From: Candidatus Latescibacterota bacterium
GTDB lineage: Bacteria > Krumholzibacteriota > Krumholzibacteriia > WVZY01
NCBI GenBank assembly: GCA_011772205.1
Contig: WVZY01000023.1
Coordinates: 1,110 to 65,109, forward strand
DNA: 64,000 nucleotides
Direction of reading: 5' to 3'
The stretch's first letter is position 1. The number at the start of each line of letters is the position of its first letter. The translations under genes and the position numbers were made by a program. A model generated the notes under the pieces. That model saw only the letters and a list, made by a program, of their open reading frames with translations. It had not been told where the DNA came from and ran no database searches. Positions 6,778 to 43,163 of the stretch are shown piece after piece.

Positions 6778-8123
6778 CCGCATCCTCTTTTCACGCCGGA
6801 GCTGTGCGACTCCACTTCAATCATTTCACCGACGGCCAGAATAGATGATTTTGGTGCTGCCTGTTCGATCCTGGATATTCTCACTGTAGCCAGCCGATTC
6901 GACAGATCCAACGGCGTGTCCACACCCACTTTTACATAGTTGCCGGAAAAGCCAACGAAGAGCCCGTTGGACTCTCGTTCTTCGAACAGCACGTTGAGCG
7001 TCCTCGCTTGCTGGGCTTCGTAGTATGCCTGCTTCTTTTTATCCGCTATATCGTGCATCGCAGCGCTTCGACGGGTAATCTCCCGCGCCGGCACCTTTTC
7101 CTTGATGGAATAGGCGGCCGTCCGCCGCCTTGCCGAAAAACTGAACACGTGGATATGGGTGAACGGGATCTCTTCCACCAGCTCGCACGACCTTTGGAAC
7201 GCACTTTCACTTTCCCCTGGAAATCCGACCATGATATCGGTCCCCAATCCCACGTTTGGAACACGCTTGATAATATCACGAATGAAAGCGACGTATTCGC
7301 TCACCCGGTACTTTCTCCGCATTCGCAACAACACCTCGTCATCTCCGCTCTGGGCGGGGATATGAAAATAAGGGCAGAGCTTTTGGCCTTCCGCCATCAT
7401 GTCGATGAGCGTTCCCTCGACGGTTGTCGGCTCGATCGAACTCAAACGGATTCTCTCGAGCCCTTCGAGGTTGGAGAGCGCCTCGACCAGATCGGCCAGC
7501 CCGCGACCGCCGTCCCAATACGTTCCCATATTGATGCCGGTCAGGATGAGCTCCCTATGGCCGAACGAAACCAGGTCGCAGGCTTCCCTCACAACATCAT
7601 CGAAATCCCGGCTCCGCGCAGGGCCGCGGCTTCGCGGGATGATGCAATACGAACAGACAAAGTCACAGCCTTCTTGAATTTTCAGATTCGCCCTCGTGTG
7701 GAAAGGATAATACCCCGCACCGGGCACGGAGAACCGCTCCTTGACCGTCCGTTCGCGAACGACCACCGCCTCCGGTAGTTTTACCGGCGAAGCGACGATC
7801 TCCGGCAACCGGAGCTTGTCCGCCGTTCCCACGATGTAGTCCACTCCCCCGATATTGCGAAGCGCTTCCACGTCCGTTTGGGCGTAACAGCCAACCGTTG
7901 CCACGCATACATCCGGATTTTTCCTCAGTATCGAACGGACTTTGCGCCGGCATTTCGATGTGGCCTGTGAGGTAAGCGAGCACGTGTTGATGACGCACAG
8001 ATCGGCCGCGGCTGTATCCTCCACGATTTCAAAGCCCTTTTGGAGGAAGCCTCTATGGAGCGATGCCGTCTCCGATTGATTGAGCCGGCATCCGAGTGTT
8101 TCGAATGCAACTTTGTACTTCAT
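6774..8123 (-). CDS. mtaB: tRNA t6A37 C2-methylthiotransferase
   Basis: 449 residues, same three-domain family as MiaB but of the MtaB type: start MKYKVAFETLGCRLNQSET (GCRLNQ is the MtaB-typical form), radical SAM motif CDFVCSYCIIPRSRGPARS, and a C-terminal TRAM region. It converts t6A37 to ms2t6A37 in ANN-decoding tRNAs. Its stop overlaps the miaB start (ATGA), so the two tRNA-37 methylthiotransferases form a tight pair. No strong Shine-Dalgarno site is seen before the ATG at 8123. Confidence 0.9.
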   Translation of the reverse strand: MKYKVAFETLGCRLNQSETASLHRGFLQKGFEIVEDTAAADLCVINTCSLTSQATSKCRRKVRSILRKNPDVCVATVGCYAQTDVEALRNIGGVDYIVGTADKLRLPEIVASPVKLPEAVVVRERTVKERFSVPGAGYYPFHTRANLKIQEGCDFVCSYCIIPRSRGPARSRDFDDVVREACDLVSFGHRELILTGINMGTYWDGGRGLADLVEALSNLEGLERIRLSSIEPTTVEGTLIDMMAEGQKLCPYFHIPAQSGDDEVLLRMRRKYRVSEYVAFIRDIIKRVPNVGLGTDIMVGFPGESESAFQRSCELVEEIPFTHIHVFSFSARRRTAAYSIKEKVPAREITRRSAAMHDIADKKKQAYYEAQQARTLNVLFEERESNGLFVGFSGNYVKVGVDTPLDLSNRLATVRISRIEQAAPKSSILAVGEMIEVESHSSGVKRGCG

Positions 8124-26353: not shown

Positions 26354-27691
26354 TTAGCCGCCTTTAGCCGCCAGTTCTGCACCCGCACTCAACGCCTTCA
26401 CATTGATTTCGGCAATGGCAGGACTCTGGGACCTGCGTATCGCCTCCGCAAAAGCTTCCACGGGAAACATTCTTGTATCTGCGAGCATGGTTCCCAACGC
26501 GGTTGCAGCCACAGAGAGCCGGCCCACATCCCTCCCGATCCGTGAAAAAGGAAACCGCCGGACTCTAGCATTTGTCTCGGGGAGTTGCAGTTTTTCCTCT
26601 GCATATAAGATGCATGTCTCGGGAAGTTTCTCTACCTGAGAACGGACTCGCTTCAATCCATCCTCGGAAATCAGAACAAATAAATCGGGTGAGTTGATGC
26701 CGGTATATTCAATGGTTTCGGGGCTCAAGATGATTTCCGACACCGAGTGGCCGGTCTGGACGGTGATGGGATAGTCGTCTTTCTGGGTAGCGTTCAAGCC
26801 TGCGAACATCGCCCCTTCAGCGAATAGCGTGGCCGTCGATCGGATCTTCTGGCCTGCGCTTCCCGCGATAAAGATGCCGGTTTGTTTCGTGACCGTATTT
26901 GCATACTTCGGTTCGATCGGTGGCTTCTTTTTGACGGTGCTTTTCCCTGCTTTGTATGCCGCCCAATAACGCTCGCTGTATTCAGGGCGCGGCTTGTCCG
27001 CCAGGAGCCCACGCTCGAAGCTCAATCCGTCCAGCAGTGAAAAGAGTTCTTTTTTATCCAGCTCGTTTAGCGCCACATAGTACGCTGCACACAACTCCCA
27101 CACATCGAGCATCGCAAAGCCCGGCTGCTCGATGGCCGTGGCAATGACATCGGGGAGATCCTTATCGAACATGGTCGCCCGGTATACCCATGGGGCACCG
27201 GCGGCGATGGCCGTCGCACAAAGATCCATTGGCCCTTCCACATTTCCCCAGGGTGTAGTTGTCGTCCTTCCATCGGTCGGCGTCGTGACCGAGTGCTGCC
27301 CTCCTGTCATACCGTAGTTGAAATTATTGCCAACGATTAGGGTAATCCCGATGTTGCGCCGCGCAACGTTCAAAAGATGAGTACCACCGATGCCGCATCC
27401 ACCGTCACCCTTCAGGACGATCACCTTGAGTTCGGGTCGCGCCAGCTTGAGGCCGCAACCGTATGTAATCGACCGGCCGTGCAGGCCGTGGAATGCGTTT
27501 GTGATGAAATACCTGCAGGACAGGCCAATACACCCGATGTCGGTGACGATCACCACCTCCTTGGGATCGAGCTGCAGCTTCACCAGGGCTTTATCCAGGG
27601 CTTTAATAAGGGGAGTGTGTCCGCAGCCGGGGCAGAATGGGAGCGGCCCGATTGCATCCGTCATGTAAGTCTTGTACTTCACCGTGCTCAC
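26354..27691 (-). CDS. 2-oxoacid:ferredoxin oxidoreductase, fused beta-gamma chain
   Basis: 445 residues. Residues 1-270 are the beta (TPP) chain: FCPGCGHTPLIKALDKAL, GDGGCGIGG, and NNFNYGMTGGQHS. Residues about 275-445 are the gamma domain: IFIAGSAGQKIRSTATLFAE, TVQTGHSVSEIILS, PDLFVLISEDGLKR. In most bacteria beta and gamma are separate genes, so this is a fusion. GTG start at 27691 overlaps the alpha-subunit stop (GTGA). Together the chains decarboxylate a 2-oxoacid with CoA and ferredoxin; the preference (2-oxoglutarate, branched-chain, indolepyruvate) is not clear, though alpha lacks its own ferredoxin domain. Confidence 0.85.
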   Translation of the reverse strand: MSTVKYKTYMTDAIGPLPFCPGCGHTPLIKALDKALVKLQLDPKEVVIVTDIGCIGLSCRYFITNAFHGLHGRSITYGCGLKLARPELKVIVLKGDGGCGIGGTHLLNVARRNIGITLIVGNNFNYGMTGGQHSVTTPTDGRTTTTPWGNVEGPMDLCATAIAAGAPWVYRATMFDKDLPDVIATAIEQPGFAMLDVWELCAAYYVALNELDKKELFSLLDGLSFERGLLADKPRPEYSERYWAAYKAGKSTVKKKPPIEPKYANTVTKQTGIFIAGSAGQKIRSTATLFAEGAMFAGLNATQKDDYPITVQTGHSVSEIILSPETIEYTGINSPDLFVLISEDGLKRVRSQVEKLPETCILYAEEKLQLPETNARVRRFPFSRIGRDVGRLSVAATALGTMLADTRMFPVEAFAEAIRRSQSPAIAEINVKALSAGAELAAKGG

Positions 27692-28815
27692 AGAAGCCCT
27701 CCTCGCTCGATAATCTCTTCAGGAGATACCAGCGTAGTGTTCATCTTGCAAACTCCCACTACTTCCACCTCCGGTGGAGCCAGCCTCTCTACTTCGACGA
27801 GATACTGCCCCATGTTCATTTCGGGTATGATGACTTTCTTCACTCCACACATAGCTGATTCGATGACTTTTTCGGGAACCGGCCAAAGCGTCTGCAACAC
27901 CAAGGAGGATACCTTTCTTCCTTGCGCTCGAGCCCGTCTTACGGCCACTGCTGCAGATCTCGAAATGATTCCGTAGCTTATAACGAGAATGTCCGCGCCT
28001 TCCTCCAAATCCTCCTTTACCAGGGCAATGTCATCTGCCGCCCGGTCGATCTTCGCCGCATAATGGTCGATCATCTCCTGGATGATTTCAGGCTTCGTCG
28101 TCAGGTAGGCGGTTTTATCATGTGTGGACGTGGTGAAGCGCGCGACATATTCCCCACCGAAATCCGATATTGCCGGTACCTCTTCAGCCGATTCGAAATA
28201 ATGCGGAAAATACCTGTCCTGGCCGGTGGGGACTCGTTTGCGTTCGACGAGCGGCGGGAGTTTGATGGAGTCTAGTGACACCGATTCCTTTGTCACCCCG
28301 ATTTCTTTATTCGTGAGAATGAAGACCGGTGTGCGGTACTTTTCAGCGAAGTTGAATGCAATGTATGTGAGTTCGTACGCCTCTCCAACCGTCGCGGGGC
28401 TTAGCGCAATAATTGGAAGCCCTCCGGAAGTCGACCAGCGTGTGAACTGGATATCGCTCTCGGCGCCCTTTGTGGCGGAACCGGTGGCGGGGCCCTGCCG
28501 CTGGACATCCACGATCACCATCGGTGTCTCCCCCATGATTGCAAGACCGATGTTCTCGCTGTAAAGGCTCATTCCCGGTCCGCTCGTAGAGGTGAGCACC
28601 CTTCGACCGGCCATAGAGGCGGCGATGCAAAAGCCCATTGATGCGATTTCATCCTCTGCTTGAATGGCAATGCCTCCAACCTCGGGCACGAGCCGCAGCA
28701 GGTAATGAAGAATCGACGAGGCCGGTGTGATGGGGTAGCTGGCAACAAAATCGCACTTCGCCTTTATGGCTCCCCGTGCGATCGCTTCGTTTCCTTCTAT
28801 GAATTCATATCCCAT
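27688..28815 (-). CDS. 2-oxoacid:ferredoxin oxidoreductase, alpha subunit
   Basis: 375 residues, KorA/VorA type: EGNEAIARGAIKAKCDFVA, SYPITPASSILHYL, EDEIASMGFCIAASMAGRR, TSTSGPGMSLYSENIGLA, then a transketolase C-terminal-like domain (ALVKEDL..VISYGIISRS, EMNMGQYLVEVERL). It contributes to the TPP pocket and binds CoA. Stop overlaps the beta-gamma start by 4 bp, so translation is coupled. No strong ribosome site precedes ATG 28815, and the promoter was not found. Confidence 0.87.
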   Translation of the reverse strand: MGYEFIEGNEAIARGAIKAKCDFVASYPITPASSILHYLLRLVPEVGGIAIQAEDEIASMGFCIAASMAGRRVLTSTSGPGMSLYSENIGLAIMGETPMVIVDVQRQGPATGSATKGAESDIQFTRWSTSGGLPIIALSPATVGEAYELTYIAFNFAEKYRTPVFILTNKEIGVTKESVSLDSIKLPPLVERKRVPTGQDRYFPHYFESAEEVPAISDFGGEYVARFTTSTHDKTAYLTTKPEIIQEMIDHYAAKIDRAADDIALVKEDLEEGADILVISYGIISRSAAVAVRRARAQGRKVSSLVLQTLWPVPEKVIESAMCGVKKVIIPEMNMGQYLVEVERLAPPEVEVVGVCKMNTTLVSPEEIIERGGLL

Positions 28816-29362: not shown

Positions 29363-31135
29363 ATGAATAACAGCAAGTTGAATCAAATGGAAGGAAATGG
29401 TCCGAGAAACGATATAACAAACAAGAGCGGTATGCTTGTGAGCCAAATCCTGATGCGCGCGAGCATCGGTATGCCCACGCTGGATTTTCTGAGGGAAGTA
29501 TCCAAATTGCTCCTGGATTTCACCAGGTGTGATGAAATCGAAATCAGAATCGTCGAGAGAAATAAGCTTTTATACTGCATAACTGCAAACGAGCAGAAGC
29601 TGCCACTGCAGTGTGGAACCATCCGGGGAAGGCACAACGAGGCCGGCCAGGTTCTTCCCTGCCTGAAGAAAGAGACAGACCTGGAGAAGATCTGCCAAGA
29701 AATCTTGAACAATCGTTTCGACCCAGAATTGCCCTATTTCACACCGAACGGAAGCTTTTGTATTGGAGATACGAGCAATCCGTTGGATCTGAGTTCGGAA
29801 ACGTGCAAGTGGGCCGGTGGCCGGACCTTCCATATCGACAGCGCTTTCAAGTCACTCGCCGTCATTCCTTTCAAAATAGAGAACACCGATTTTGGATTGC
29901 TATTATTGAAGAGCAGAAAGAAAAATTTCCTCGCCGCACATGAAGTAGAATGTTACGAAGATTTTGCAAAGATCTTGGGGATTGCATCAACCCAGCGACG
30001 CGCGCAAATCGCCTTGCGTGAACGCGTTAAAGAGTTAACTTGCCTTTACGGAATAGCCAAAGTCGCGGCAAGACCCGGCATATCTCTCGAGCAAATTTTA
30101 ACTGAAGCCGTAGCGCTTCTTCCTCAAGGTTGGCTCTACCCAGATATCGCTTCGGCCAGCATTGATTTCGCCGGTCAAACCTACTCCACGGAAGGCTTTC
30201 ATGAAAGCCCCCAAATGCAAACAACACAAATCATGATCGGCGGAGAGAAGCGAGGTGCCGTGCAGGTTGCATACTCTAAAAAAATGCCTGAGCTCGATGA
30301 GGGCCCTTTTCTGAAAGAGGAACGCCATTTGATCGATGCTATAGGCAGAGAATTGTCGCTAATCATAGAGACCATGCAGAAAGAAGAGGAAAAGACCGTC
30401 CTCCAAGAACAGTTGCGCCATGCCGACCGGTTGGCTACGATCGGCCAGCTGGCAGCTGGTGTAGTTCATGAGCTGAACGAACCGCTGGCAAGTATCCTCG
30501 GACGCGCCCAGCTGGCCGCGAAGATCCCAGAATTGCCGGAGCAAGCGCGTCTGGACAACGAGAAGATTGTCAAAGCATCGCTGCATGCTAGGGAAATCAT
30601 TAATAAGCTCAAACTCTTTGCACGCCAGGAGCCGTCGCGTAAAGATCGAATCAATCTCAACGATATCGTATACGATGGGTTGTACTTTGTGGAATCGCGA
30701 TGCGCAAAAGCTGGGATCACGCTGCTGAGAGACCTGGACCCAGATCTTCCCGATATCACCGCCGACGCCGGCCAACTATACCAGGTGCTGATCAACCTGG
30801 TCGTCAATGCAGTTCAGGCAACCCCCGATGGCGGACGCATTACTGTCCGCACCGCAAAGCACGGTGCAGATGTTGCATTGATAGTGCAGGATACGGGGGC
30901 GGGTATGGATGAAAAAATGCTCAAGCATATCTTCACCCCATTCTTTACAACAAAGGATGTCGATGAGGGAACGGGTCTTGGACTGGCCGTTGTGCACGGG
31001 ATAGTAGATTCCCACGGCGGCTCCATCAGCGTTGAGAGCACGTTGGGAAAGGGCTCCTGTTTCGAGGTTCATCTTCCCTCAACCCACCCCGAGAAGCAAA
31101 AAGAGGAGGAAGGGAATGAAAGTGCAAAAGAATAA
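29363..31135 (+). CDS. Sensor histidine kinase, cytoplasmic, with two GAF-like regions
   Basis: 590 residues, no membrane segment. Two GAF-like regions at about 30-215 and 220-340 precede the dimerisation domain with the H-box GVVHELNEPLAS (phospho-accepting His369). The ATPase domain follows: NLVVNAVQATPDGG (N box), VQDTGAGMD (G1), FTPFFTTKDVDEGTGLGLAVV (F/G2). The NtrB-like H-box suits pairing with the sigma-54 response regulator, whose gene overlaps its 3' end by 20 bp. The N-terminal region is unusually cysteine-rich for a soluble sensor (C55, C71, C84, C99 and others), which may hint at redox or metal sensing; this is speculative. Confidence 0.85.
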   Translation: MNNSKLNQMEGNGPRNDITNKSGMLVSQILMRASIGMPTLDFLREVSKLLLDFTRCDEIEIRIVERNKLLYCITANEQKLPLQCGTIRGRHNEAGQVLPCLKKETDLEKICQEILNNRFDPELPYFTPNGSFCIGDTSNPLDLSSETCKWAGGRTFHIDSAFKSLAVIPFKIENTDFGLLLLKSRKKNFLAAHEVECYEDFAKILGIASTQRRAQIALRERVKELTCLYGIAKVAARPGISLEQILTEAVALLPQGWLYPDIASASIDFAGQTYSTEGFHESPQMQTTQIMIGGEKRGAVQVAYSKKMPELDEGPFLKEERHLIDAIGRELSLIIETMQKEEEKTVLQEQLRHADRLATIGQLAAGVVHELNEPLASILGRAQLAAKIPELPEQARLDNEKIVKASLHAREIINKLKLFARQEPSRKDRINLNDIVYDGLYFVESRCAKAGITLLRDLDPDLPDITADAGQLYQVLINLVVNAVQATPDGGRITVRTAKHGADVALIVQDTGAGMDEKMLKHIFTPFFTTKDVDEGTGLGLAVVHGIVDSHGGSISVESTLGKGSCFEVHLPSTHPEKQKEEEGNESAKE

Positions 31136-32462
31136 AGCTTCTATACTCGTTGTTGACGACGCCCCTGACACCCTGGAAGTGTTGCAGCGCAATCTTTCCT
31201 CCTCGGGATATAAGGTGTATGCGGCGCCGGGAGTTGCCGAAGCAATTGAGCTTCTAGAGAAGATACGAGTGGATCTGGTGATTACTGATCTGAAAATGCC
31301 CAAGATCAGCGGGCTCGATCTGGTTCGTCACGTCCGCGAAAACCTCACTGATACCGAAGTCATGATGATCACCGGATATGCGACCATAGGCGGTGCCGTA
31401 GAAGCGGTCAAAACCGGCGCCGATGAGTATCTGTCCAAGCCGTTTACAGACGAGGAGCTGGCTGCTGCTGTTGACAGGGTGCTTGGAAAGCTTCATGCCC
31501 GACGGCTAGCGCAAGAGCGACCTGACCATAGAGCTTCATCGGTGCACGGTATTCTCGGAAAATCTCAAGCCATGCAGGAGGTATTCCTTGCAATCGAAAA
31601 AGCAGCGACAACATCAGCCACAGTACTCATCTCGGGTGAAAGTGGGACTGGGAAAGAGTTGGTAGGCCGGGCCATCCACTACAGCGGTGCGAGAAGCTCA
31701 GCGCCGTTCGTACCGATTAACTGCGGCGGTATCCCCGGTGAACTCGTTGAAAGCGAACTTTTCGGCCACGTTAAAGGTGCCTTCACAGGAGCGGCGGCTT
31801 CACGCGCGGGTTTCTTTCAGACAGCGGATGGTGGAAGCATATTTCTAGATGAGATCAGCGAGACGAGCGGTTCGACGCAAGTGAAACTTCTGCGGGTGCT
31901 GCAGGATAAGGAAGTCTACATGCTCGGTGCCACTCGTCCCACCAAAGTCGATGTTCGCATCCTAACTGCCACCAATAAAAACCTCCATTCACTAGTCGAA
32001 AAGGGATCTTTTCGCGAGGACCTTTACTTCCGTTTGAGCGTCATTACGATCAATGTCCCTCCGCTTAGAGAACGAGGTGCTGACGTTCTCCTTTTGGCAA
32101 ACCACTTCGTCTCCAAATTCGCTAGAGAAGCAGACAAACCAGTTCCCGAATTCTCCAGTGCTGTGCTTGAAGTCCTAAAGAATTATTCATGGCCCGGAAA
32201 CGTTCGCGAACTGGAAAATCTTATGCAACGTCTCGTCGTCATGAAAGATGGACCGATCATCGAGGTCCCGGATCTTCCGCCTTTCATGCGTTTTTCTGTA
32301 AGTCGTGAGCGAGGTTTCAACCGAACGCTTGCCGAAGTCGAAGCAGAATACATCAAGAACGTGCTCGCGAGTGTGAAGGGCAACAAGACAAAAGCAGCCC
32401 AAATACTCGGCATTGATCGAAAGACGCTTCGGGATAGACTCAAGAATATCGAGAGTCCCTGA
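31116..32462 (+). CDS. Sigma-54-dependent response regulator (NtrC family)
   Basis: 448 residues from ATG 31116 (GAGGAGGAAGGGA upstream). Receiver domain residues 7-120 with phospho-acceptor Asp58 (VITDLKMP) and Lys at SKPF; AAA+ domain about 145-375 with Walker A GESGTGKE, the sigma-54 contact loop GAFTGA, and Walker B GGSIFLDEI; Fis-type HTH at the C-terminus (NKTKAAQILGIDRKTLRDRL split across 425-445). It should activate sigma-54 promoters, most simply the one at 32666-32680 directly downstream. Coupled to the histidine kinase by overlap. Confidence 0.93.
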   Translation: MKVQKNKASILVVDDAPDTLEVLQRNLSSSGYKVYAAPGVAEAIELLEKIRVDLVITDLKMPKISGLDLVRHVRENLTDTEVMMITGYATIGGAVEAVKTGADEYLSKPFTDEELAAAVDRVLGKLHARRLAQERPDHRASSVHGILGKSQAMQEVFLAIEKAATTSATVLISGESGTGKELVGRAIHYSGARSSAPFVPINCGGIPGELVESELFGHVKGAFTGAAASRAGFFQTADGGSIFLDEISETSGSTQVKLLRVLQDKEVYMLGATRPTKVDVRILTATNKNLHSLVEKGSFREDLYFRLSVITINVPPLRERGADVLLLANHFVSKFAREADKPVPEFSSAVLEVLKNYSWPGNVRELENLMQRLVVMKDGPIIEVPDLPPFMRFSVSRERGFNRTLAEVEAEYIKNVLASVKGNKTKAAQILGIDRKTLRDRLKNIESP

Positions 32463-32530
32463 GTACCCGAATAAGAATTTGAGGAATTTCTCCCCAGTGG
32501 TTCAAATTTCCCCGTTCAACTCTTCATGAT

Positions 32531-32542
32531 ATGACCGGTCAT
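32531..32542. promoter_or_regulatory. Perfect palindrome, possible activator binding site
   Basis: ATGACCGGTCAT is a 12-bp perfect palindrome flanked by further TCATGA half-matches. It lies about 125 bp upstream of the sigma-54 promoter, a distance usual for NtrC-family upstream sites. Assignment is inference. Confidence 0.4.
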
Positions 32543-32665
32543 GATTATCTCCGGGGCCTTCGCTAGAGAATTCACTCTCCCCATCCTTGATATTATCAAA
32601 GAGTTAGCAGCTGGCCGGCACCTGCTTCTCGCGTAACAGTTGCCGGAGATTTATTACCCACATCC

Positions 32666-32680
32666 TGGTATAGGTCTTGC
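32666..32680 (+). promoter_or_regulatory. Sigma-54 (-24/-12) promoter
   Basis: TGGTATAGGTCTTGC carries GG at 32667-32668 and GC at 32679-32680 with exactly 10 bp between, matching TGGCAYR-N4-TTGC in most positions. It lies 187 bp upstream of the ATG of the small CxxC protein gene and directly downstream of the sigma-54 activator gene. It probably drives 32867-39605. The rest of 32463-32866 shows no gene. Confidence 0.65.
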
Positions 32681-32866
32681 CTTGTGCTTGGAGGTAAGAA
32701 GACGAATAGGGTGAAAGGGCGAGTCAATAATTCGATTGCTGGATCGGCAAAAGTGATCGCAATATCCACTCAACCCTGATGACGCTTTGGCTTTCTTGAG
32801 CGGGGGGTCAACATGCCCTCTAACTACGAATATGCCGAACGCGGAAGTGCGAAGGAGGAGATCTCC

Positions 32867-33175
32867 ATGGCCCTCATTGTCGAAACCAAGTCTCCAGGTC
32901 TTTGCTCGACTTGTAATAATGCCCATACCTGTTTCTACCGGAAGAGGCGCGGTTTTGATGCTTTGTTTTGTGAGATGTTCGACGACTATGTCCCAGATGG
33001 GAAAGCCGGGACCCGAGTAGCGGGAGTGGTCATTCCAACAGCCTGGACCGAAGCGGAAGGTGAAAGATCAGCCGCTGAGCCATTAAAAGGTCTCTGCGTG
33101 AACTGCGAAAACAGGGATGCCTGCATGTTTCCAAAACCTGAAGGCGGCATCTGGCATTGTGAAGAGTACAAGTAG
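32867..33175 (+). CDS. Small double-CxxC metal-binding protein, function unknown
   Basis: 102 residues from ATG 32867, with a strong AAGGAGGAG site. Two related halves each hold a four-cysteine set: CSTCNNAHTCFYRK..C near residues 13-36 and CVNCENRDACMFPK..C near 80-99. Both read C-x2-C-x5/6-C and then a lone Cys in an aromatic/acidic stretch. It likely binds zinc or an FeS cluster. First gene of the sigma-54-controlled operon containing NuoE/NuoF::GltD/NuoG-like subunits, so it may be an electron carrier or assembly factor for that complex (inference). I do not recognise the family. Confidence 0.65.
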   Translation: MALIVETKSPGLCSTCNNAHTCFYRKRRGFDALFCEMFDDYVPDGKAGTRVAGVVIPTAWTEAEGERSAAEPLKGLCVNCENRDACMFPKPEGGIWHCEEYK

Positions 33176-33238
33176 TTATCGTTTGGCGCCCGCGATGATC
33201 GGGGAACCGGAACAAATTTCAATCAGAGGATTCAAATC

Positions 33239-34090
33239 ATGAAGAAAGAGATAGTGCAGAGTATCTTGAAGAAGAACGACGGTAGTCGGAGCGGACTGAT
33301 CTCGATTCTTGAGGACATACAGGCAAAACAAGGCTATCTATCTGAAGATGCATTGCGCATGGTAGCAGAAAAGACCAAGCGCTCCCTAGTCGACGTGTAT
33401 GCTGTCGCCACCTTCTACAAGGCCTTTAGCCTCCAGCCCCGCGGGAAGCACCTGATATCCGTATGCCTAGGAACTGCTTGCCACGTTCGGGGAGGACCGA
33501 CAGTCGCCCGAGGATTCGAAAAAAATCTGAGCATTAAAGCAGGCGAGACGACTCATGACAAAGAATTTACTTTGGAAACGGTTAATTGCCTCGGTGCTTG
33601 TGCTCTGGGACCCGTCGCCGTAGTAGACGGTCATTATTTTCCGAAAATGAAAACCTCAGGTGTTCCTGGAATCATCGAGAAAACTCGCGTTGGCCTCGAT
33701 CATGTGGAAATCGATACGGACCAGCGGGTGTTTCCTGTTGAGGTGAGTTGTGCTCGCTGCAATCACAGCCTCATGGACCCCCGCCACCCGATCGACGGTC
33801 ATCCGTCAATACGAGTCACTGTATCCTTCGGACACAAGCATGGCTGGTTAGCGCTCTCCAGCCTGTATGGCAGCTACAACGTAGCCTCCGAGTACGAGAT
33901 TCCAACGGATGCGGTTGCTCATATCTTTTGTCCGCATTGTCACGCCGAGTTGATTGGCGGCGCTAAATGCGGCGAGTGTGGAGCACCGATGGTGCCGATG
34001 ATCGTTCGAGGGGGCGGCGTGGTCCAGATCTGCGCCCGCCGAGGTTGCAAAGGTCATATGTTGGACCTCATTGGTACTACCATCGGCTGA
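33239..34090 (+). CDS. NuoE-like [2Fe-2S] subunit with C-terminal zinc-ribbon domain
   Basis: 283 residues. Residues 1-155 are a thioredoxin-like NuoE/HndA chain: LISILEDIQAKQGYLSED, VYAVATFYKAFSL, and cluster ligands CLGTACHVRGG ... CLGACALGP. The remaining about 125 residues are not found on ordinary NuoE: CARCNHSL near the junction, CPHCHAELIGGAKCGECG, and CARRGCKGH, suggesting one or two zinc ribbons. NuoE passes electrons between NADH/FMN and other clusters. It is the second gene of the operon and 35 bp before the NuoF::GltD gene. Confidence 0.85.
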   Translation: MKKEIVQSILKKNDGSRSGLISILEDIQAKQGYLSEDALRMVAEKTKRSLVDVYAVATFYKAFSLQPRGKHLISVCLGTACHVRGGPTVARGFEKNLSIKAGETTHDKEFTLETVNCLGACALGPVAVVDGHYFPKMKTSGVPGIIEKTRVGLDHVEIDTDQRVFPVEVSCARCNHSLMDPRHPIDGHPSIRVTVSFGHKHGWLALSSLYGSYNVASEYEIPTDAVAHIFCPHCHAELIGGAKCGECGAPMVPMIVRGGGVVQICARRGCKGHMLDLIGTTIG

Positions 34091-34125
34091 TTTTTTGCCA
34101 AAGACTTGCAAAGGAAGATGTTTAC

Positions 34126-37100
34126 ATGTACAAGCTCTCATCCATCAACGAACTCGCTGAATTTCGCGGTCGTATTCTGAGAGAGAAGGAAGTTCAGCAA
34201 GACAGGCCTACTCTGGTCATATGCGCCGGGACAGGTGGGCAAGCCAGCGGCTCCAATGATGTTATAAGAATAATCAAACGATGCATTCTAGAGCGCGGTT
34301 TGCAAGAGAAGTTGAACCTCAGAATTACTGGTTGTCAAGGCTTCTGCGAGATGGACCCATTTATCGTGGTGCACCCCGGACAACATCTTTACCCCAAGCT
34401 GAGAATGGAAGATGTCCCCCGGGTAATCGATGCCGCAATGGGCGGGTATGTAGATGGAGAACTGATCTACAAAGATGCAAGCGAGCAAAGAGGTTGTCAT
34501 TGTCAGAGTGACATCCCGTTTTTTAGTAAGCAAACGCGTACCATTCTGGGCGATAACCAGAAATTGGATCCTATAAGGATCATGGAATATTTGGAGCAGG
34601 GAGGATATGCCGCTCTGGAAAAAGCACTGTCAAATCCTGATCCAGAATGGATTATCAATGAAGTAAAGAAATCCGAACTAAGGGGGCGTGGGGGCGCCGG
34701 TTTCCCAACCGGTAAAAAGTGGGAATTGGCCCGAGCTGCGGGCAACGGGTTTCAACAGAAATATATAGTCTGCAATGCTGATGAAGGCGATCCAGGTGCA
34801 TACATGGATCGCAGCCTTCTTGAAGGCAATCCTCATGCGATTATCGAAGGGATGCTAATTGCGGGCGTTGCAATCGGCGCTACGCGGGGGTTCATCTATG
34901 TCCGTAGCGAATATCCCCTGGCGATCAAACACACGCTCATCGGGCTCAGGCAAGCACGCGATCTAGGTCTTTTAGGTATGGATATTCTAGGAACTGGTAT
35001 TGACTTCGATATCGAGATAGTCCGTGGCGCCGGGGCTTTCGTCTGCGGCGAAGAGACAGCTTTGATTAGCTCGATAGAGGGGCGAATGGGTGAGCCGAGA
35101 CAGCGACCACCTTATCCTATCGAAAGGGGTCTTTGGGGTTGTCCCACTTGCATAAATAACGTTGAGACACTGGCCAATATACCGGTGATTATAAACAGAG
35201 GAGGCGAAGGATACGCCAAGGTTGGAGTTCCCGGTAATAGAGGGACGAAGATTTTTTCTTTGGTCGGAAAAATCAGAAACACGGGCCTGGTAGAAGTGCC
35301 GCTCGGCACCAAAATCAGCGAGGTCGTATACGGTATAGGTGGTGGGCCTGTCGACAAAAGGAAGATCAAGGCTGTTCAGACAGGGGGGCCCTCGGGGGGT
35401 TGTATTCCAGCCAGCAGGTTCGATCTGCCCATAGACTATGAAAGCTTGGCAGAGGTTGGATCTATTATGGGCTCAGGCGGCATGATTGTGATGGACGAAA
35501 ACACCTGCATGGTTGATGTCGCTAAATACTTCATGAATTTCTTGAAAGATGAGTCATGCGGCAAGTGCTTTACCTGCCGCAAGGGAACACAGCGGATGTA
35601 CGAAATCCTCGATGCCATTACGAAAGGCCAAGCTGAACTGGAAGACCTCGACCTACTCGAGGAACTCGCGCTGGTCGTGAAAGACACCACCATGTGTGGC
35701 CTCGGGCATTCAGCCCCCAATCCGGTTCTCAGCACTTTAAGCTATTTTCGAGAAGAGTACGAACAGCATATCAAAAACAAGAAATGCAATGCATTCGTGT
35801 GCAAAGAGCTGGTGGGAGCTCCCTGCCAGGCCGCCTGTCCGCTGGGTACCGAAGCCTGGCGCTACGTTGCGCATATTGCGCGGGGTGAGTATGAAGACGC
35901 CTATCAAGTCATCCGTGAGGCCAATCCCTTCCCATCGGTGTGCGCGCGGGTTTGTCATCATCCATGCGAGGAAAGGTGCCGCGCTGGCACCAGTGGAGAT
36001 AGCTCTGTGGCTATTCGAGCTCTCAAGCGTTTTATTACGGATCGTATCGACCCTTCGGTATACACCCCGAAGAGAACTGCTTGGAAAGATGGAGAGCCTC
36101 CGCTTGTCGCTATTGTAGGGTCGGGTCCCGCCGGTCTCACCGCTGCTCACTGCCTTTCCTTGCGCGGCTATAAGGTAACCGTCTTCGAAGCGGAGTGCGA
36201 GCCAGGAGGCATGCTTAGCTGTGCAATCCCGTCATACCGCCTGCCTCAGGAAGTCATTAAAAAGGAAATCGATTCTCTCCTGGACGAGAATATCACCATC
36301 AAGTGCAATACCGTTCTCGGCCGCAACCTAACGGTTGATGGTCTATTTGAAGACGGCTACCAAGCGGTGCTGCTGGCGCTGGGTGCGCACAAAAGCCGTC
36401 CGCTCCGGCTTGAAAACGAGGATGCGCAGGGAATCTATCCATCAATCGAATTTCTCAAGTCATTCAATGTGGAAGGCAGAGAACTCGCTCAAGGGCGGGT
36501 TGGCATCATTGGCGGCGGGAACTCAGCTATTGACGCCGCGCGCACGGCGCTCCGCCAGAGAGATGTGGAAAGTGTCACCATCCTATACCGCCGAACCCGG
36601 GATGAAATGCCGGCATTTCTCGAAGAGATTGAAGCTGCAGATCGGGATGGCATTCAGATTAATACGCTGGTTGCTCCAACCAGAATCATTGCTGAAGGCG
36701 GGCGTCTCAAAGCCCTTGAACTTATCCGAAACGAGCTGGGCGACTTTGATGAAAGCGGGCGGCGTCGGCCGATTCCGATAGCTGGCACCGAGCATGTGAT
36801 CGAAATCGACACGTTGATCGTTGCGATAGGAGAGGACCCGGGAATTGATGCGATCGGGGCTGACTCATTAAGCCAGATTGAGACGACCAGATCCAACACC
36901 GTACGAGTTGATTCAGCCACTCTGTTGACCAGTCGGCCTGGGGTGTTTGCCGCAGGGGACGTCGTCACCGGGCCCAATACTGTGGTCGATGCCATTGCGG
37001 ACGGCAAGAGAGCGGCAACGATGATCGACCGTTATATACGAGGGGAAGAAATGGCGCAACCGGAAGAGCCGCAGCTGCCGAAGGTCTATCTCGAACCGGT

Positions 37101-37317
37101 CCAGGTGGAGGCAGAAGAAGCCGAGGCCATTAGCCGAATAGTAACGCGTAGAGCCCCGGTAGAACCGCGCAAACTAGATTTCACTGAGGTGGAGGTGGCA
37201 CTCTCGGCAGACGAGGCAACCTGTGAGGCACGCCGTTGCCTGCGGTGTGATTTGGATTACACGCAACCCAAGGAAATAGAAACTCTGGCCGGGGCTGCTA
37301 TAAGCGGAGGAGACTGA
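34126..37317 (+). CDS. NuoF::GltD fusion, NADH-binding flavoprotein with FAD/NAD(P) domain
   Basis: 1063 residues from ATG 34126 (AAGGAAG upstream). Order: N-terminal thioredoxin-like [2Fe-2S] region (about 1-115; CxxxC at CQGFCEMDP), NuoF FMN/NADH domain (GRGGAGFPTGKKWE near 188, ADEGDPGAYMDR), SLBB, and NuoF 4Fe-4S helix bundle (CGKCFTCRKGTQRM). From about residue 540 a GltD-type chain: Cys sets CQAACPLG and CARVCHHPCEERC, FAD motif GSGPAGLTAAHCLSLRGY, GIIGGGNSAID for NAD(P), and VFAAGDVVTGPNTVVDA. HydB/NuoF-type proteins usually carry a ferredoxin domain there instead. It would link NADH, FMN, FeS and FAD in one chain; suitable for hydride transfer or bifurcation, which is inference. Confidence 0.87.
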   Translation: MYKLSSINELAEFRGRILREKEVQQDRPTLVICAGTGGQASGSNDVIRIIKRCILERGLQEKLNLRITGCQGFCEMDPFIVVHPGQHLYPKLRMEDVPRVIDAAMGGYVDGELIYKDASEQRGCHCQSDIPFFSKQTRTILGDNQKLDPIRIMEYLEQGGYAALEKALSNPDPEWIINEVKKSELRGRGGAGFPTGKKWELARAAGNGFQQKYIVCNADEGDPGAYMDRSLLEGNPHAIIEGMLIAGVAIGATRGFIYVRSEYPLAIKHTLIGLRQARDLGLLGMDILGTGIDFDIEIVRGAGAFVCGEETALISSIEGRMGEPRQRPPYPIERGLWGCPTCINNVETLANIPVIINRGGEGYAKVGVPGNRGTKIFSLVGKIRNTGLVEVPLGTKISEVVYGIGGGPVDKRKIKAVQTGGPSGGCIPASRFDLPIDYESLAEVGSIMGSGGMIVMDENTCMVDVAKYFMNFLKDESCGKCFTCRKGTQRMYEILDAITKGQAELEDLDLLEELALVVKDTTMCGLGHSAPNPVLSTLSYFREEYEQHIKNKKCNAFVCKELVGAPCQAACPLGTEAWRYVAHIARGEYEDAYQVIREANPFPSVCARVCHHPCEERCRAGTSGDSSVAIRALKRFITDRIDPSVYTPKRTAWKDGEPPLVAIVGSGPAGLTAAHCLSLRGYKVTVFEAECEPGGMLSCAIPSYRLPQEVIKKEIDSLLDENITIKCNTVLGRNLTVDGLFEDGYQAVLLALGAHKSRPLRLENEDAQGIYPSIEFLKSFNVEGRELAQGRVGIIGGGNSAIDAARTALRQRDVESVTILYRRTRDEMPAFLEEIEAADRDGIQINTLVAPTRIIAEGGRLKALELIRNELGDFDESGRRRPIPIAGTEHVIEIDTLIVAIGEDPGIDAIGADSLSQIETTRSNTVRVDSATLLTSRPGVFAAGDVVTGPNTVVDAIADGKRAATMIDRYIRGEEMAQPEEPQLPKVYLEPVQVEAEEAEAISRIVTRRAPVEPRKLDFTEVEVALSADEATCEARRCLRCDLDYTQPKEIETLAGAAISGGD

Positions 37318-37997
37318 TGATGGTTACATTGCACCTAAATGGTTTAAAAGTCTCGCTGGAAGAAGGCGCTACCTTACTTGATGCGGCGAAGTTTCTCGGT
37401 TTTCCGATTCCAACGCTTTGTCACATGGAAGGTCTCTCTCCTTACGGTGCTTGCCGGCTATGCGTCGTAGAGATCGGGGAAGGCGAGAATGCCAAATTAG
37501 TCTCATCATGCACTTACCCAGTGCAAGAGGGTTTGAAGATACGTACCGCATCATCGCGCGTTTTAAGGGCTCGCAGGATGATTCTGGAACTCCTGCTTGC
37601 CTCGTGTCCGCAATCGAGGACCATTCAGGATCTTGCATCTGCGCATGGTATTCGCATTCAACGATTCCGGCAGGAGCACGAGGACTGCATACTTTGTGGC
37701 CGCTGCGTGAGGATGTGCGAGGAGCAGATGATGGCCAAAGCCATTGGCTTTCGCGGGCGTGGCCAGGCCCGGAGCATCGGTACGCCGTTTGATATCAAAT
37801 CAGACGTTTGCCGATTGTGCGGCGGTTGCATGTATATTTGCCCGGCCTGCCAGCTCAGATGCACGTACAGCGAGCCAGAGAGAGCTGTCTGCGGCGGCTG
37901 TGCGAATCTTATGTCACCGTGTGTGGAGATGGAAAATTTCGATGACCTGATGTGCTATATGGATCCTTGTGTGGCATGTGAAATACATAAGGACTGA
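37317..37997 (+). CDS. HoxU/NuoG-N-like iron-sulfur protein
   Basis: 226 residues. N-terminal plant-type [2Fe-2S] domain (PTLCHMEGLSPYGACRLCVV, C at CTYPV), a His/Cys [4Fe-4S] segment as in NuoG, and two [4Fe-4S] sets CILCGRCVRMCEE and CRLCGGCMYICPAC, followed by an extra Cys-rich tail (CGGCANLMSPC, CVACE). It lacks the large Mo-enzyme-like part of NuoG, so it resembles the diaphorase subunit HoxU. It starts inside the stop of the NuoF::GltD gene (TGATG), giving coupled translation; a start one codon later is equally possible. It likely supplies an electron exit path for the complex. Confidence 0.85.
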   Translation: MMVTLHLNGLKVSLEEGATLLDAAKFLGFPIPTLCHMEGLSPYGACRLCVVEIGEGENAKLVSSCTYPVQEGLKIRTASSRVLRARRMILELLLASCPQSRTIQDLASAHGIRIQRFRQEHEDCILCGRCVRMCEEQMMAKAIGFRGRGQARSIGTPFDIKSDVCRLCGGCMYICPACQLRCTYSEPERAVCGGCANLMSPCVEMENFDDLMCYMDPCVACEIHKD

Positions 37998-38024
37998 TGA
38001 AACGGAAGAGGAGGAGAAGAAAAA

Positions 38025-39605
38025 ATGTCGTTTTCTAGAGTAAACACATCGGCTGCAACCCTTACGAAAAACAGAACAGAGGATTCCATAGTGCCGATCT
38101 CCGGCATGTGCGTAACATGCGTTGACGGCTGCATTGGTATGTGCGAGATCGGCAAGTCGGCATACCGGGGACACGAAGTGATCTACCCGCAGCCATTCGG
38201 AGTCATCACGTCGGCCGCCGAAAAAGATTTTCCCATTGACTATTCTCATTTCAGCATCATGGGGACTTCAGTAGGGGCGCACGGTATCGAGCAAGACAGT
38301 GACAAGGCTGTCTTTCCGAACGTGAATCTCGAGGTTACTTTTGGCCATGACGGCGGACTAAGGTTCAAGTATCCCTGGATCATACCGGGCATCGGGTCCA
38401 CGGACATCGCGAAAAATAACTGGGAGGGTCTGGCAATTGGCACCGCAATAGCCGGAACGGGCCTTACGATCGGCGAAAACGTCGTTGGAATGGACCCCGA
38501 GGCCAAGATCGAAAACGGACGAGTAGTCGATACCGTTGATCTCAAAAAGCGGGTAAATCTGTTCAAGGACTTCCAAAGAGACAACTACGGCGCCACGATC
38601 GTCCAGGCAAACATCGAAGACACACGATTGGGAGTCCAAGAGTATGCGATCGAGAAACTAGGAGTTGAATGCGTCGAACTCAAATGGGGCCAGGGCGCAA
38701 AAAACATCGGCGGCGAAGTCAAAATCCGGAATTTGGAAAAAGCGCAAATGCTCTACAAGCGCGGATACGTCGTCCTGCCAAATCCTACCAATCCAAACGT
38801 TGTCGAGGACTTTAAGCGAGGCGTGTTCAGAGAGTTCGAGCGGCACTCGAGGGTTGGCATGGTCACCGAAGAATCATTTGCCCAACGCGTCGGAGAACTC
38901 CGTAAAGCCGGAGCCAAATACATTTTTTTGAAAACTGGAGCGTATAGACCGGCTGATTTGGCCAGGGCCGTGAAGTTCTGTTCCAAATACAAAATAGACC
39001 TTCTCACTGTCGACGGCGCTGGAGGAGGAACCGGTATGAGCCCGTGGCGGATGATGAACGAGTGGGGAGTGCCTCCCGTAGAACTGCATTCGCTTCTGTA
39101 TCAATACACCAAGCGCATCTCTGATAGAGGCGAGCACGTGCCAGCGCTCGCCCTTGCCGGTGGATTTACGTTCGAAGACCAAATATTCAAGGGACTGGCC
39201 ATCGGTGCCCCATTTGTAAAGCTCATCGGCATGGCGCGAGGCCCCATCGCCGCAGCGATGGTCGGCAAGACAATTGGCCGGGCTATCGATGAACATCAGC
39301 TTCCCGTCTATGTCGAACGTTTCGGAAATACGAAGGACGAAATCTTTGTAACCGCAGGTGCGCTGCGCAGAGAGCTTGGAAACGAGGAATTCGAAAGGCT
39401 TCCAACAGGCGCAATCGGATTGTATACCTACTATGAGCGTCTCGCGCAGGGGCTGCGGCAGCTCATGGCAGGAAGCCGGAAGTTTTCTATCGAGCACATT
39501 TCGAGAGACGACATAGCGGCTCTAACTCACAAGGCAGCGGATATCAGTGGAATCCCTTATGTAACCGATGTTGACAAGGCAGAGGTCGAGGAGATTCTAA
39601 GCTAG
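38025..39605 (+). CDS. GltB-like FMN-binding protein without the 3Fe-4S motif
   Basis: 526 residues. N-terminal cysteine cluster CVTCVDGCIGMCE (residues about 29-41), then a glutamate-synthase FMN barrel: KWGQGAKNIGGEVKI, the TVDGAGGGTGMSPWRMMNEWG loop region, LALAGGFTFEDQIFKGLAIGA. The usual C-x5-C-x4-C 3Fe-4S ligands of GltB after the barrel are missing, unlike the second copy at 41736-43163. There is no amidotransferase domain, so it is not a full glutamate synthase. It is the last gene of the NuoE/NuoF::GltD operon (27 bp gap) and the likely terminal flavin site. Substrate unknown. Confidence 0.82.
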   Translation: MSFSRVNTSAATLTKNRTEDSIVPISGMCVTCVDGCIGMCEIGKSAYRGHEVIYPQPFGVITSAAEKDFPIDYSHFSIMGTSVGAHGIEQDSDKAVFPNVNLEVTFGHDGGLRFKYPWIIPGIGSTDIAKNNWEGLAIGTAIAGTGLTIGENVVGMDPEAKIENGRVVDTVDLKKRVNLFKDFQRDNYGATIVQANIEDTRLGVQEYAIEKLGVECVELKWGQGAKNIGGEVKIRNLEKAQMLYKRGYVVLPNPTNPNVVEDFKRGVFREFERHSRVGMVTEESFAQRVGELRKAGAKYIFLKTGAYRPADLARAVKFCSKYKIDLLTVDGAGGGTGMSPWRMMNEWGVPPVELHSLLYQYTKRISDRGEHVPALALAGGFTFEDQIFKGLAIGAPFVKLIGMARGPIAAAMVGKTIGRAIDEHQLPVYVERFGNTKDEIFVTAGALRRELGNEEFERLPTGAIGLYTYYERLAQGLRQLMAGSRKFSIEHISRDDIAALTHKAADISGIPYVTDVDKAEVEEILS

Positions 39606-41060: not shown

Positions 41061-41555
41061 ATGGCCACGAGGGACAACTTGAAAGAAGCATTCGCAGGAG
41101 AGAGCCAGGCGTACCGCAAGTATATGATGTTTGCAAAGAAGGCCGAGCAAGACGGGCTGCCCAATATCGCCCGTCTGTTTCGTACGACGGCCGAGGCGGA
41201 GAGGATTCACGCGGAGGGGCATCTGAACGCTATGGGAGCAATTGGCTCAACAGCGGAAAATCTGCAGGCGGCCATTGACGGAGAGACCTATGAGTACACC
41301 GACATGTACCCGCCGATGATCGAGCAGGCCGAAGCTGATGGTCACAAGGCCAAGCGCATGTTTGGATACGCGGTCAAGGCCAAAGCGACCCATGCGAAGC
41401 TGTACAAACACGCACTTGAGGCCGCACAGCGCGGTGAAGACTTAGCAGAGACACAGTTTTATCTATGTCCGGTATGCGGGCATATCGAATTCGGGAACCC
41501 TCCGGATTCATGTCCTGCGTGCGGTGCGAAAGGCGATAAGTTCGTCCAGGTATAG
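41061..41555 (+). CDS. rbr: Rubrerythrin
   Basis: 164 residues. Four-helix diiron domain with the ligand motifs FAGESQAYRKY, TAEAERIHAEGH, and KATHAKLYKHAL, followed by a C-terminal rubredoxin-like domain CPVCGHIEFGNPPDSCPACG (residues about 137-156). It reduces hydrogen peroxide in anaerobes, using reductant from rubredoxin or NADH oxidoreductases. GAAAGGAG precedes ATG 41061. The next gene carries a rubredoxin domain, a possible electron donor. Confidence 0.95.
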   Translation: MATRDNLKEAFAGESQAYRKYMMFAKKAEQDGLPNIARLFRTTAEAERIHAEGHLNAMGAIGSTAENLQAAIDGETYEYTDMYPPMIEQAEADGHKAKRMFGYAVKAKATHAKLYKHALEAAQRGEDLAETQFYLCPVCGHIEFGNPPDSCPACGAKGDKFVQV

Positions 41556-41735
41556 TCAGGCCTTTTTATCTGCCCTTAATAATAGAGGCGCCGGCGGCTG
41601 TTTGAGCACTAAACCGTCTCGTGCAGCTACCGACGGAGTGACCGTATATGGCCGCCGGACGGGTGGTGGCGAACCGCCTTGTCAGGCCGATATCGAAGCG
41701 CTGAAGCAATCTCGTTGGTAAAGGAGATCTTAACC

Positions 41736-43163
41736 ATGGCCCATCCATCTGCAAGGGTTTGGGAGTGCGGGGTGTGCGGTTATCTATATGATGAAAAAAA
41801 AGAAGGCACAGGATGGGATGAATTGCCGGAGGATTGGGAGTGCCCTATTTGCGGTGCCCTCAAGTCCGAGTTCATCCCGGCTGAGCAATCCGCGGGTGCT
41901 CAAGCTCCGGGGCCAGGAGCGCCCGAAGGCTCACCTAGCGAGTATCTCGGACAATGGGCGAGAGCCACCGATGATACCGAAACGCTCATGGCAGACATCC
42001 ATCGAATGGCGGCAACCGGTGAGTCCATCATCGAGCCGATGAGATCGAAGACACCCGTCGTTTCATGGAATGACATATTGATAAAAGGCGCACAGCTTGC
42101 CCGCTTCCCACTGAACAAGACAGAACCCGTAAACACGAGGACGGTCGTAGGGCACAATGCAAAGCGTCCTTTAGTGATAGAAACGCCTATCTATATCACA
42201 CACATGTCTTTTGGAGCATTATCAAGAGAGATCAAGCTGGCGCTGGCAAAAGGCAGCGCGGCCGCACGCACTGCGATGTGCTCTGGAGAAGGCGGAATTC
42301 TCAAGGAATCCTTGGAGAGCGCACACAAATATATCTTCGAATATGTACCCAACCGATATAGTGTCACCGACGATTATCTAAGAGCCATTGATGCGATCGA
42401 AATCAAAATCGGCCAGTCCGCAAAACCCGGCATGGGCGGCCACTTGCCTGCGAATAAAGTCACAAAAGAAATCGCCGAAATCCGCGGTTTCCCTGAAGGA
42501 ACCGACATCACCAGCCCTTCTCGCTTTGATGACATCGCCAATAAGGATGACCTGAAGAAAAAAGTCCAATGGCTTCGGGAAAAATCCAGCGGCAAGCCAA
42601 TTGGTATCAAGATTGCCGGTGGACATATCGAAGCGGATTTGGAAGTTGCCCTTCACGCTGGACCCGACTTCATCACCATTGACGGAAAACCGGGCGCTAC
42701 CGGGGCAGCACCAAAGTTCATCAAGAGCGCTACTTCGGTTCCAACGATTTTCGCTCTCCACCGCGCCAGAAAGTTCCTGGATGAGAAAGGCGCCGGCAAT
42801 GTATCGCTGCTGATTACTGGCGGACTGCGGGTCTCCCCGGATTTCGCAAAAGCTCTGGCGCTGGGCGCAGATGCCATCGCCATCGGCACGTCGGCGCTAA
42901 TGGCGTGCGGATGTCAACAATATCGCATCTGTCACACGGGTAAATGTCCTGTCGGCATCACCACTCAGGATCCAGGTCTCAGGGCAAGGCTCGACATCAA
43001 TGAATCCGCCAGAAGACTGGAGAATTTCCTCCGGGTTTCCACAGAAGAGCTCAAGGACTTTGCCAGGCTCACAGGAAACAAAGACGTTCACGACCTTTCG
43101 ATAACCGATCTGTGTACTATAAATTCCGAGATTTCAGAGCATACCGACATCGAACACGTGTAG
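41736..43163 (+). CDS. Rubredoxin-fused GltB-like FMN protein
   Basis: 475 residues from ATG 41736 (AAAGGAG upstream). N-terminal rubredoxin with C11/C14 (CGVCGYLYD) and C36/C39 ([11 protein letters not shown]). Then a glutamate synthase FMN domain: [24 protein letters not shown]-type loop, [58 protein letters not shown], and the 3Fe-4S ligands [20 protein letters not shown]. No amidotransferase domain. The rubredoxin domain suggests electron input from a rubredoxin-type partner; the cluster nearby offers both NADH and peroxide chemistry. Probably co-expressed with rubrerythrin 180 bp upstream. Confidence 0.88.

Follow-up and report, generated by a model that had tools for sequence, protein, structure and literature searches.

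Organization of the locus

Within the window, a 64,000-nucleotide stretch of contig WVZY01000023.1 (Candidatus Latescibacterota bacterium, assembly GCA_011772205.1), an unbroken run of + strand genes at 29363-39605 ends in a compact five-gene operon for a predicted redox complex whose parts resemble NuoE, NuoF, GltD, HoxU and GltB. The run opens with a histidine kinase with a cytoplasmic-type sensor (29363-31135; PF00512, HisKA; PF02518, HATPase_c) and an NtrC-family response regulator, a sigma-54 activator (about 31110-32462; PF00072, PF00158, PF02954). A -24/-12 (sigma-54) promoter element, TGGTATAGGTCTTGC, recognized by its sequence and by a spacing motif in relatives, follows at 32666-32680. 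Behind it lie genes for a small protein with two C-x2-C-x5-C-x11/12-C motifs, recognized by Cys conservation (32867-33175); NuoE/BfuC with a [2Fe-2S] cluster (C1) and a C-terminal double zinc-ribbon-like domain (33239-34090; PF01257); a 1063-residue BfuB (NuoF-like) protein fused to a Stn-type GltD (34126-37317; PF01512, PF10589, PF14691, PF07992); a HoxU-like Type-2 BfuA (37317-37997; best Protein Data Bank (PDB) match and Cys conservation); and a GltB-like subunit assigned as a flavin mononucleotide (FMN) (β/α)8 protein from a partial PF01645 match, an AlphaFold model and Foldseek (38025-39605). The ATG of the HoxU-like gene overlaps the NuoF stop codon, and the GltB-like start follows the HoxU stop after 27 bases. 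Re-reading of the open reading frames and Pfam searches thus recovered, part by part and in place, the gene inventory that a preliminary description of this DNA had given. Residue numbers of NuoF::GltD refer to the translation of 34123-37314 and exceed by one those of the protein that begins at 34126.

The open reading frame of the small protein spans 32813-33175, with a better start at the ATG at 32867, which is preceded by AGGAGG. No match was found in Pfam or NCBIfam; its eight Cys are invariant in 22/22 homologues, and the protein likely carries two metal sites. On the - strand at 27688-28815, divergent from the operon's kinase gene, lies a gene for a 2-oxoacid:ferredoxin oxidoreductase alpha-type subunit, an adjacency that is not conserved in other loci.

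Distribution and regulation of the operon

We aligned four GltB-like proteins of this and related genomes and searched one genome per species with the alignment. At least 568 GltB-like stretches were confirmed, and the locus counts rest on the best 80 of these. The 80 proteins are 76-86% identical along their entire length and spread over about 14 phyla, with carriers among Zixibacteria, Latescibacterota, Planctomycetota, Myxococcota, Thermodesulfobacteriota, Ignavibacteria, Bacteroidota, Acidobacteriota, Armatimonadota, Spirochaetota, Coatesbacteria, Eisenbacteria, KSB1, Riflebacteria, Neomarinimicrobiota and others. Counting only loci whose contig extends far enough upstream, the GltB-like gene is preceded by HoxU in 77/77, NuoF in 69/69, NuoE in 62/62, GltD in 43/62 and the regulator in 39/56 cases, with the order NuoE-NuoF-HoxU-GltB intact in all testable loci. 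The preliminary description had made its proposed complex depend on the subunits co-occurring in other genomes, and in every testable locus they do. The recurrence of the NuoF::GltD fusion in 43 of the 62 testable loci rules out a one-off fusion or an assembly artefact.

The close form was present in 18 of 198 sampled Phycisphaerae genomes and in 4 of 58 genomes in a set of relatives of the window genome (own genome counted). Because the tree of the NuoF part intermixes phyla, we take the operon to move horizontally; no relative of it was found in the viral contigs searched. One deltaproteobacterial contig from a metagenome-assembled genome (L083) carries a second, fragmentary GltB-like copy at 6584-7103, 3' of the complete one.

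Of 44 gaps between regulator and operon, 31 contain the motif TGG-N9-TGC, far more than the 3.2 that shuffled sequence would yield. The regulator orthologue found upstream is 60-71% identical between phyla and for this reason looks dedicated to the operon, and the family of the histidine kinase recurs upstream in 41 loci. With an adjacent activator and a -24/-12 element of conserved spacing, the operon is, as judged from its sequence, under sigma-54 control; synteny and the promoter motif also support the earlier proposal that a single operon under sigma-54 control encodes a single redox complex. Sigma-70 promoters and terminators were predicted only at the level of shuffled sequence. In loci of the Bacteroidota/Ignavibacteria/Neomarinimicrobiota type (L030, L057, L060, L077, L097), the operon often lacks its kinase/regulator pair and has beside it instead a large PPDK_N (phosphoenolpyruvate/pyruvate-binding) protein, often with glutamate dehydrogenase. 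Four further loci (L041, L053, L088, L090) encode a large downstream protein with a sensor region like that of the kinase.

A bifurcating-type BfuBC core

The Bfu family is defined by its BfuBC core, whose hallmark is cluster B2, held by Cys, Cys/Thr, His, Cys and Cys (PMC9304861). The structures closest in sequence to the NuoF half are the bifurcating B subunits 7t2r, 7q4v, 9n5u, 8a6t and 9bov, and those closest in fold to its AlphaFold model are 8a6t, 9bp5, 9mqx and 9n5u; by both measures, bifurcating B subunits outrank complex-I NuoF. The model of the whole NuoF::GltD protein has a predicted local distance difference test (pLDDT) score of 84 and a predicted template modelling (pTM) score of 0.80. 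Ligands were counted in the 66 complete BfuB proteins of the operon, comprising 49 long proteins with GltD and 17 short ones. In the BfuB of the window, PF01512 and PF10589 mark the FMN/NADH domain and the B1 region, and the four Cys of B1 are invariant in 66/66. With Cys438, Cys/Thr476, His525, Cys531 and Cys536 of 7t2r_B as the reference positions, the B2 ligands Cys 462, His 549, Cys 555 and Cys 560 are found in 66/66, and the fifth position (500) is Ser, Thr or Cys in 63/66.

The best PDB matches of NuoE are the HydC/BfuC subunits of bifurcating enzymes. Its PF01257 domain covers residues 7-149 and contains the C1 ligands C76, C81, C117 and C121, kept in 49-50 of 50 homologues; the C-terminal domain behind it has four Cys pairs, these eight extra Cys being present in 50/50. 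By sequence and predicted fold, the NuoEF part is a BfuBC core of the bifurcating type rather than a plain complex-I NuoEF. NADH entry at a NuoEF-type pair with a NuoF-like subunit, as first described, is retained; the assignment to plain NuoF is not, as this half is BfuB-like. The bifurcation raised there as a possibility is supported as such by the BfuBC core with its invariant B2 ligands.

A further NuoF-bearing cluster (L025; G000:C9, about 76.9-87.4 kb) lies beyond the window end. It resembles a class II benzoyl-CoA reductase, with an AOR-type BamB, iron-sulfur (FeS) and HdrA-like subunits and NuoE-, NuoF- and HoxU-like proteins, its NuoF being without a B3/B4 domain.

GltD as an exchangeable port

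In the 17 short BfuB proteins (for example in L004/L023/L050, L028, L034 and L036), there is no GltD, and an ordinary ferredoxin-binding 2x[4Fe-4S] domain (B3/B4) lies behind the B2 hinge. Their operons otherwise keep the same partners, with highly conserved HoxU-like and GltB-like proteins. On the NuoF tree the long and short forms interchange 11 times by parsimony, at least six of these across well supported branches. The GltD module is nearer to the NADP(H) module of NfnABC/Stn than to that of GltS or NfnAB, ends, as in NfnABC/Stn, in an RCLxC tail that supplies the remaining FeS ligands, and retains the Arg-Arg of the NADPH site. It is predicted to hold two [4Fe-4S] clusters, flavin adenine dinucleotide (FAD) and an NADP(H) site. 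Because it is Stn/NfnABC-like and keeps the Arg-Arg, NADP(H) most likely replaces ferredoxin in the long form. In Stn, the GltD domain transfers electrons and does not bifurcate (PMC10482914).

These two forms bear directly on how the complex would be wired. The preliminary description had electrons pass from NADH through FMN, FeS and the FAD of GltD to the FMN of GltB, as in a linear glutamate-synthase-like chain. GltD and GltB are indeed partners in glutamate synthase and both are present in the window, but the 17 of 66 BfuB proteins without GltD still have their HoxU-like and GltB-like partners, the GltD module is similar to that of Stn/Nfn-Bfu, and the [3Fe-4S] site of GltS is lost from the GltB-like subunit, which makes such a chain highly improbable. 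The short forms lead us to reject GltD as the wire to GltB; because they keep the partners, GltD appears to take the place of the ferredoxin site, and the HoxU-like protein is the likely wire.

A second alternative is that the complex is a non-bifurcating NADH/NADPH (or NADH/ferredoxin) oxidoreductase with a linear FeS path, in which the GltB-like subunit simply takes up electrons. We consider this quite improbable, since the B2 ligands are invariant in both forms and include the His that is absent from non-bifurcating homologues (PMC9304861), and since the short form keeps its ferredoxin domain, although BfuB-like proteins that lack B3/B4, as the long form does, have been regarded as non-bifurcating (PMC11406978).

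The HoxU-like and GltB-like subunits

The HoxU-like protein has as its best PDB match 9mqx_A, the BfuA of a tungsten aldehyde oxidoreductase Bfu. The Cys sets for the A1 [2Fe-2S] and two [4Fe-4S] clusters, which characterize a Type 2 BfuA, are invariant, and a C-terminal tail holds eight further Cys, kept in 65-66 of 66 proteins. In Type-2 Bfu enzymes the third substrate is handled by an extra subunit beside BfuA, and it is this position, beside the HoxU-like gene, that the GltB-like gene occupies.

Sequence and profile searches of the GltB-like protein against the PDB gave only a chance-level match, and PF01645 matches it only at residues 279-400. The AlphaFold model, which gives no prediction for the first 68 residues and has a pLDDT of 74.5 (above 80 in most of the barrel), shows an FMN-type (β/α)8 barrel consistent with a synthase domain, for which FMN is predicted from the fold. 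Foldseek ranked 2-hydroxyacid oxidases first, type-2 IPP isomerase (IDI-2) among the matches and GltS 14th (7mfm and 2vdc among the GltS entries). In agreement with the earlier statement that no amidotransferase is present, Pfam found neither a class-II amidotransferase nor a GXGXG domain in the protein, both of which belong to GltS, and no GXGXG domain in the whole genome. A profile alignment with a canonical GltS domain places E151, Q223, K226 and R246 at conserved positions, which we take to surround FMN and 2-oxoglutarate in GltS structures and which are invariant among the GltB-like homologues. At residues 29-40, a CxxCxxxCxxxC motif, with its Cys kept in 68-69 of 69 proteins, likely forms a [4Fe-4S] site, which could meet the HoxU tail.

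Other GltB-type proteins occur outside the operon. Directly downstream, at 41061-43163, are genes for a rubrerythrin and then a rubredoxin::GltB FMN-barrel fusion with a canonical [3Fe-4S] motif; because the genome has no GXGXG, the latter is likewise an orphan synthase domain. The pair recurs in a relative (L026, 7441-7935 and 8069-9457) whose genome is without a close copy of the operon's GltB-like gene. Stand-alone GltB-like relatives (L107-L113) in other Phycisphaerae are 41-49% identical, share the N-terminal Cys motif and have no NuoEF genes; one of them, L111, lies near an Rnf cluster.

Linkage to glutamate metabolism

The most frequent non-operon family at the loci is glutamate dehydrogenase, with 13 genes in the flanks of 12 of the 80 loci, in many phyla and from at least two subfamilies. 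In a Zixibacterium (L052) and Scalindua rubra (L063), the gene stands within the operon itself, after the CxxC gene and before NuoE. With 47 glutamate dehydrogenase genes in 30 carrier genomes (about 1.6 each), chance would place about 0.3 in the flanks. Assuming as many as three copies per genome, the linkage still has a P of about 1e-13 by a rough Poisson estimate, which takes no account of ancestry shared by the lineages. In a Pfam scan of the immediate neighbours, with glutamate dehydrogenases counted separately, only PPDK_N proteins recur (8/53). The presence of glutamate dehydrogenase at 12 of 80 loci therefore points to glutamate/2-oxoglutarate.

The barrel of the same Bfu complex might instead act on another substrate, such as a 2-oxo or imino acid, a 2-hydroxy acid or an unsaturated compound, with the glutamate dehydrogenase linkage only mirroring shared control by nitrogen or redox state. 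The Foldseek ranking, the partial PF01645 match and the existence of barrel relatives without NuoEF all fit this alternative; the association of distinct glutamate dehydrogenase subfamilies with the operon in separate phyla, including two cases within it, and the invariance of the Q/K/E/R positions of the GltS site argue against it. On balance we regard it as somewhat unlikely.

Canonical GltB is absent from the window genome and from most of the 30 carriers, an absence common to relatives without the operon. We reject a role as general substitute for canonical glutamate synthase (GOGAT), given this common absence and the fact that Phycisphaerae carriers retain GltB as frequently as non-carriers do.

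Proposed mechanism

The products of these genes very probably assemble into a single Bfu-type complex whose third-substrate subunit is the GltB-like protein. That its substrate is 2-oxoglutarate plus ammonium/glutamate has about an even chance; bifurcation or confurcation in the strict sense has less than that, because the long form has no ferredoxin domain. The reading that joins these parts, a Bfu-family (HydBC-core) complex, 'Glt-Bfu', with the GltB-like FMN subunit as third-substrate module likely acting on 2-oxoglutarate and ammonium/glutamate, is the one we favor tentatively, at just short of an even chance. The sequence analysis itself establishes the genes involved, their conservation and that of the ligands, the exchange of domains, the promoter motif and the linkage to glutamate dehydrogenase; from these we infer the cofactor occupancy, subunit contacts, substrate, bifurcation and direction of this complex.

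Several observations weigh against the Glt-Bfu reading. The B5 [2Fe-2S] site in the N-terminal thioredoxin-like domain has only three of its four Cys; in StnB of Stn, too, Cys are missing from B5 (PMC7483475). Schut et al. count B3/B4 within the invariant Bfu core (PMC9304861), and the BfuB of the window lacks both, GltD having replaced them. Because B3/B4 are present in one and replaced in the other, the short form falls within the Bfu definition and the long form of the window is strictly a Bfu-derived variant; a sub-type I BfuB with the same replacement is nevertheless still named as part of BfuABC (PMC11406978). The Cys of the [3Fe-4S] motif CxxxxxCxxxxC are gone from the GltB-like protein in a profile alignment with the canonical GltS-type domain at 41679-43163, and its barrel is only distantly similar to GltS, so that the substrate could differ. 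There is no glutamate dehydrogenase linkage at the window locus, nor in 85% of loci, and canonical GltB is retained by 11 of 18 Phycisphaerae carriers, close to the average for the class (Fisher P about 0.8).

In the Glt-Bfu complex, expression would be switched on by the dedicated histidine kinase and NtrC-type activator with sigma-54. NAD(H) would react at the BfuB FMN, and B1, the HoxU-like clusters with the Cys-rich tail and the N-terminal [4Fe-4S] of GltB would wire this flavin to the FMN of the GltB-like subunit, where 2-oxoglutarate with free ammonium/glutamate would be the most likely substrate. The C1-B2 branch would lead to ferredoxin in the short form or to the FAD/NADP(H) of GltD in the long form of the window; any bifurcation would take place at the Bfu FMN-FeS centre. 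In the bifurcating direction, favourable amination would drive NADH-dependent reduction of ferredoxin or NADP+, and in the confurcating direction NADH and ferredoxin/NADPH would jointly push amination harder; the data favor neither. From textbook potentials, NADH-driven amination of 2-oxoglutarate would be exergonic enough for NADP+ reduction and about enough for that of ferredoxin. Used in the confurcating direction, the complex would capture ammonium without ATP under a greater driving force. The most specific version, an ATP-free, amidotransferase-free glutamate synthase on a Bfu core that bifurcates or confurcates with NADH and ferredoxin (short form) or NADPH (long form) and whose low-potential port evolution can exchange, we consider unlikely.

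If correct, electron bifurcation would extend to nitrogen metabolism, in the first bifurcating enzyme of amino-acid/nitrogen metabolism, and the Bfu family would gain a new type of third-substrate subunit where its members normally carry a hydrogenase or formate dehydrogenase. With NADH and ferredoxin (or NADPH) as electron partners, uncultured anaerobes in about 14 phyla would form glutamate or oxidise it, needing neither ATP nor glutamine, and nitrogen (glutamate) chemistry in anaerobes may thus be tied directly to the pools of NADH, NADPH and ferredoxin. The exchange of a ferredoxin for an NADPH port in an otherwise constant complex offers a natural experiment on which clusters carry the low-potential branch.

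Comparison with known systems

The BfuBC core, Type-2 BfuA, the fusion of GltD to BfuB and GltB-like FMN proteins are known pieces; their combination, its spread, the conservation of its regulator, the repeated exchange of the port and the link to glutamate dehydrogenase have apparently not been described. Our literature search, which covered open-access text without supplements, found no description of NuoEF with GltB/GltD, so that an earlier mention in a supplement (for example as an unassigned BfuB in Schut 2022) is possible. The preliminary description knew of no described enzyme with this arrangement; the NuoF::GltD fusion by itself had been reported in 2024 in the BfuB of Hydrogenedentota sub-type I [FeFe]-hydrogenases (PMC11406978), where a DPD_II plus FAD/NAD(P) domain replaces the C-terminal B3/B4, while the combination with a GltB-like subunit was found nowhere. 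The partner there is an [FeFe]-hydrogenase BfuA with no GltB-like subunit, and it is in the present operon that the module exchange is recurrent.

With GltBD/GltS and archaeal-type GltB, the operon shares an FMN barrel of the same superfamily and the GltD module; it differs in having no glutaminase, GXGXG or [3Fe-4S] motif, in its own N-terminal CxxCxxxCxxxC and in its electron input. The Stn/NfnABC (Nfn-Bfu) transhydrogenase likewise combines a HydBC-type core with a GltD NADP(H) module ending in an RCLxC tail, but there GltD lies inside the BfuA chain (StnC) and feeds the core, whereas here it lies in BfuB, replaces the ferredoxin domain and is accompanied by an extra FMN subunit. The Type 2 Bfu enzymes (Wor-Bfu, 9MQX, and Bam-Bfu, with NiFe-Bfu as structural reference) have the same BfuB/BfuC core with B1, B2, C1 and the FMN/NADH site, a BfuA with A1 and two [4Fe-4S] clusters and an extra third-substrate subunit; the present operon departs from them in its GltB-like FMN barrel as that subunit, the eight-Cys tail of its BfuA, the zinc ribbons on NuoE and, in the long form, GltD in place of B3/B4.

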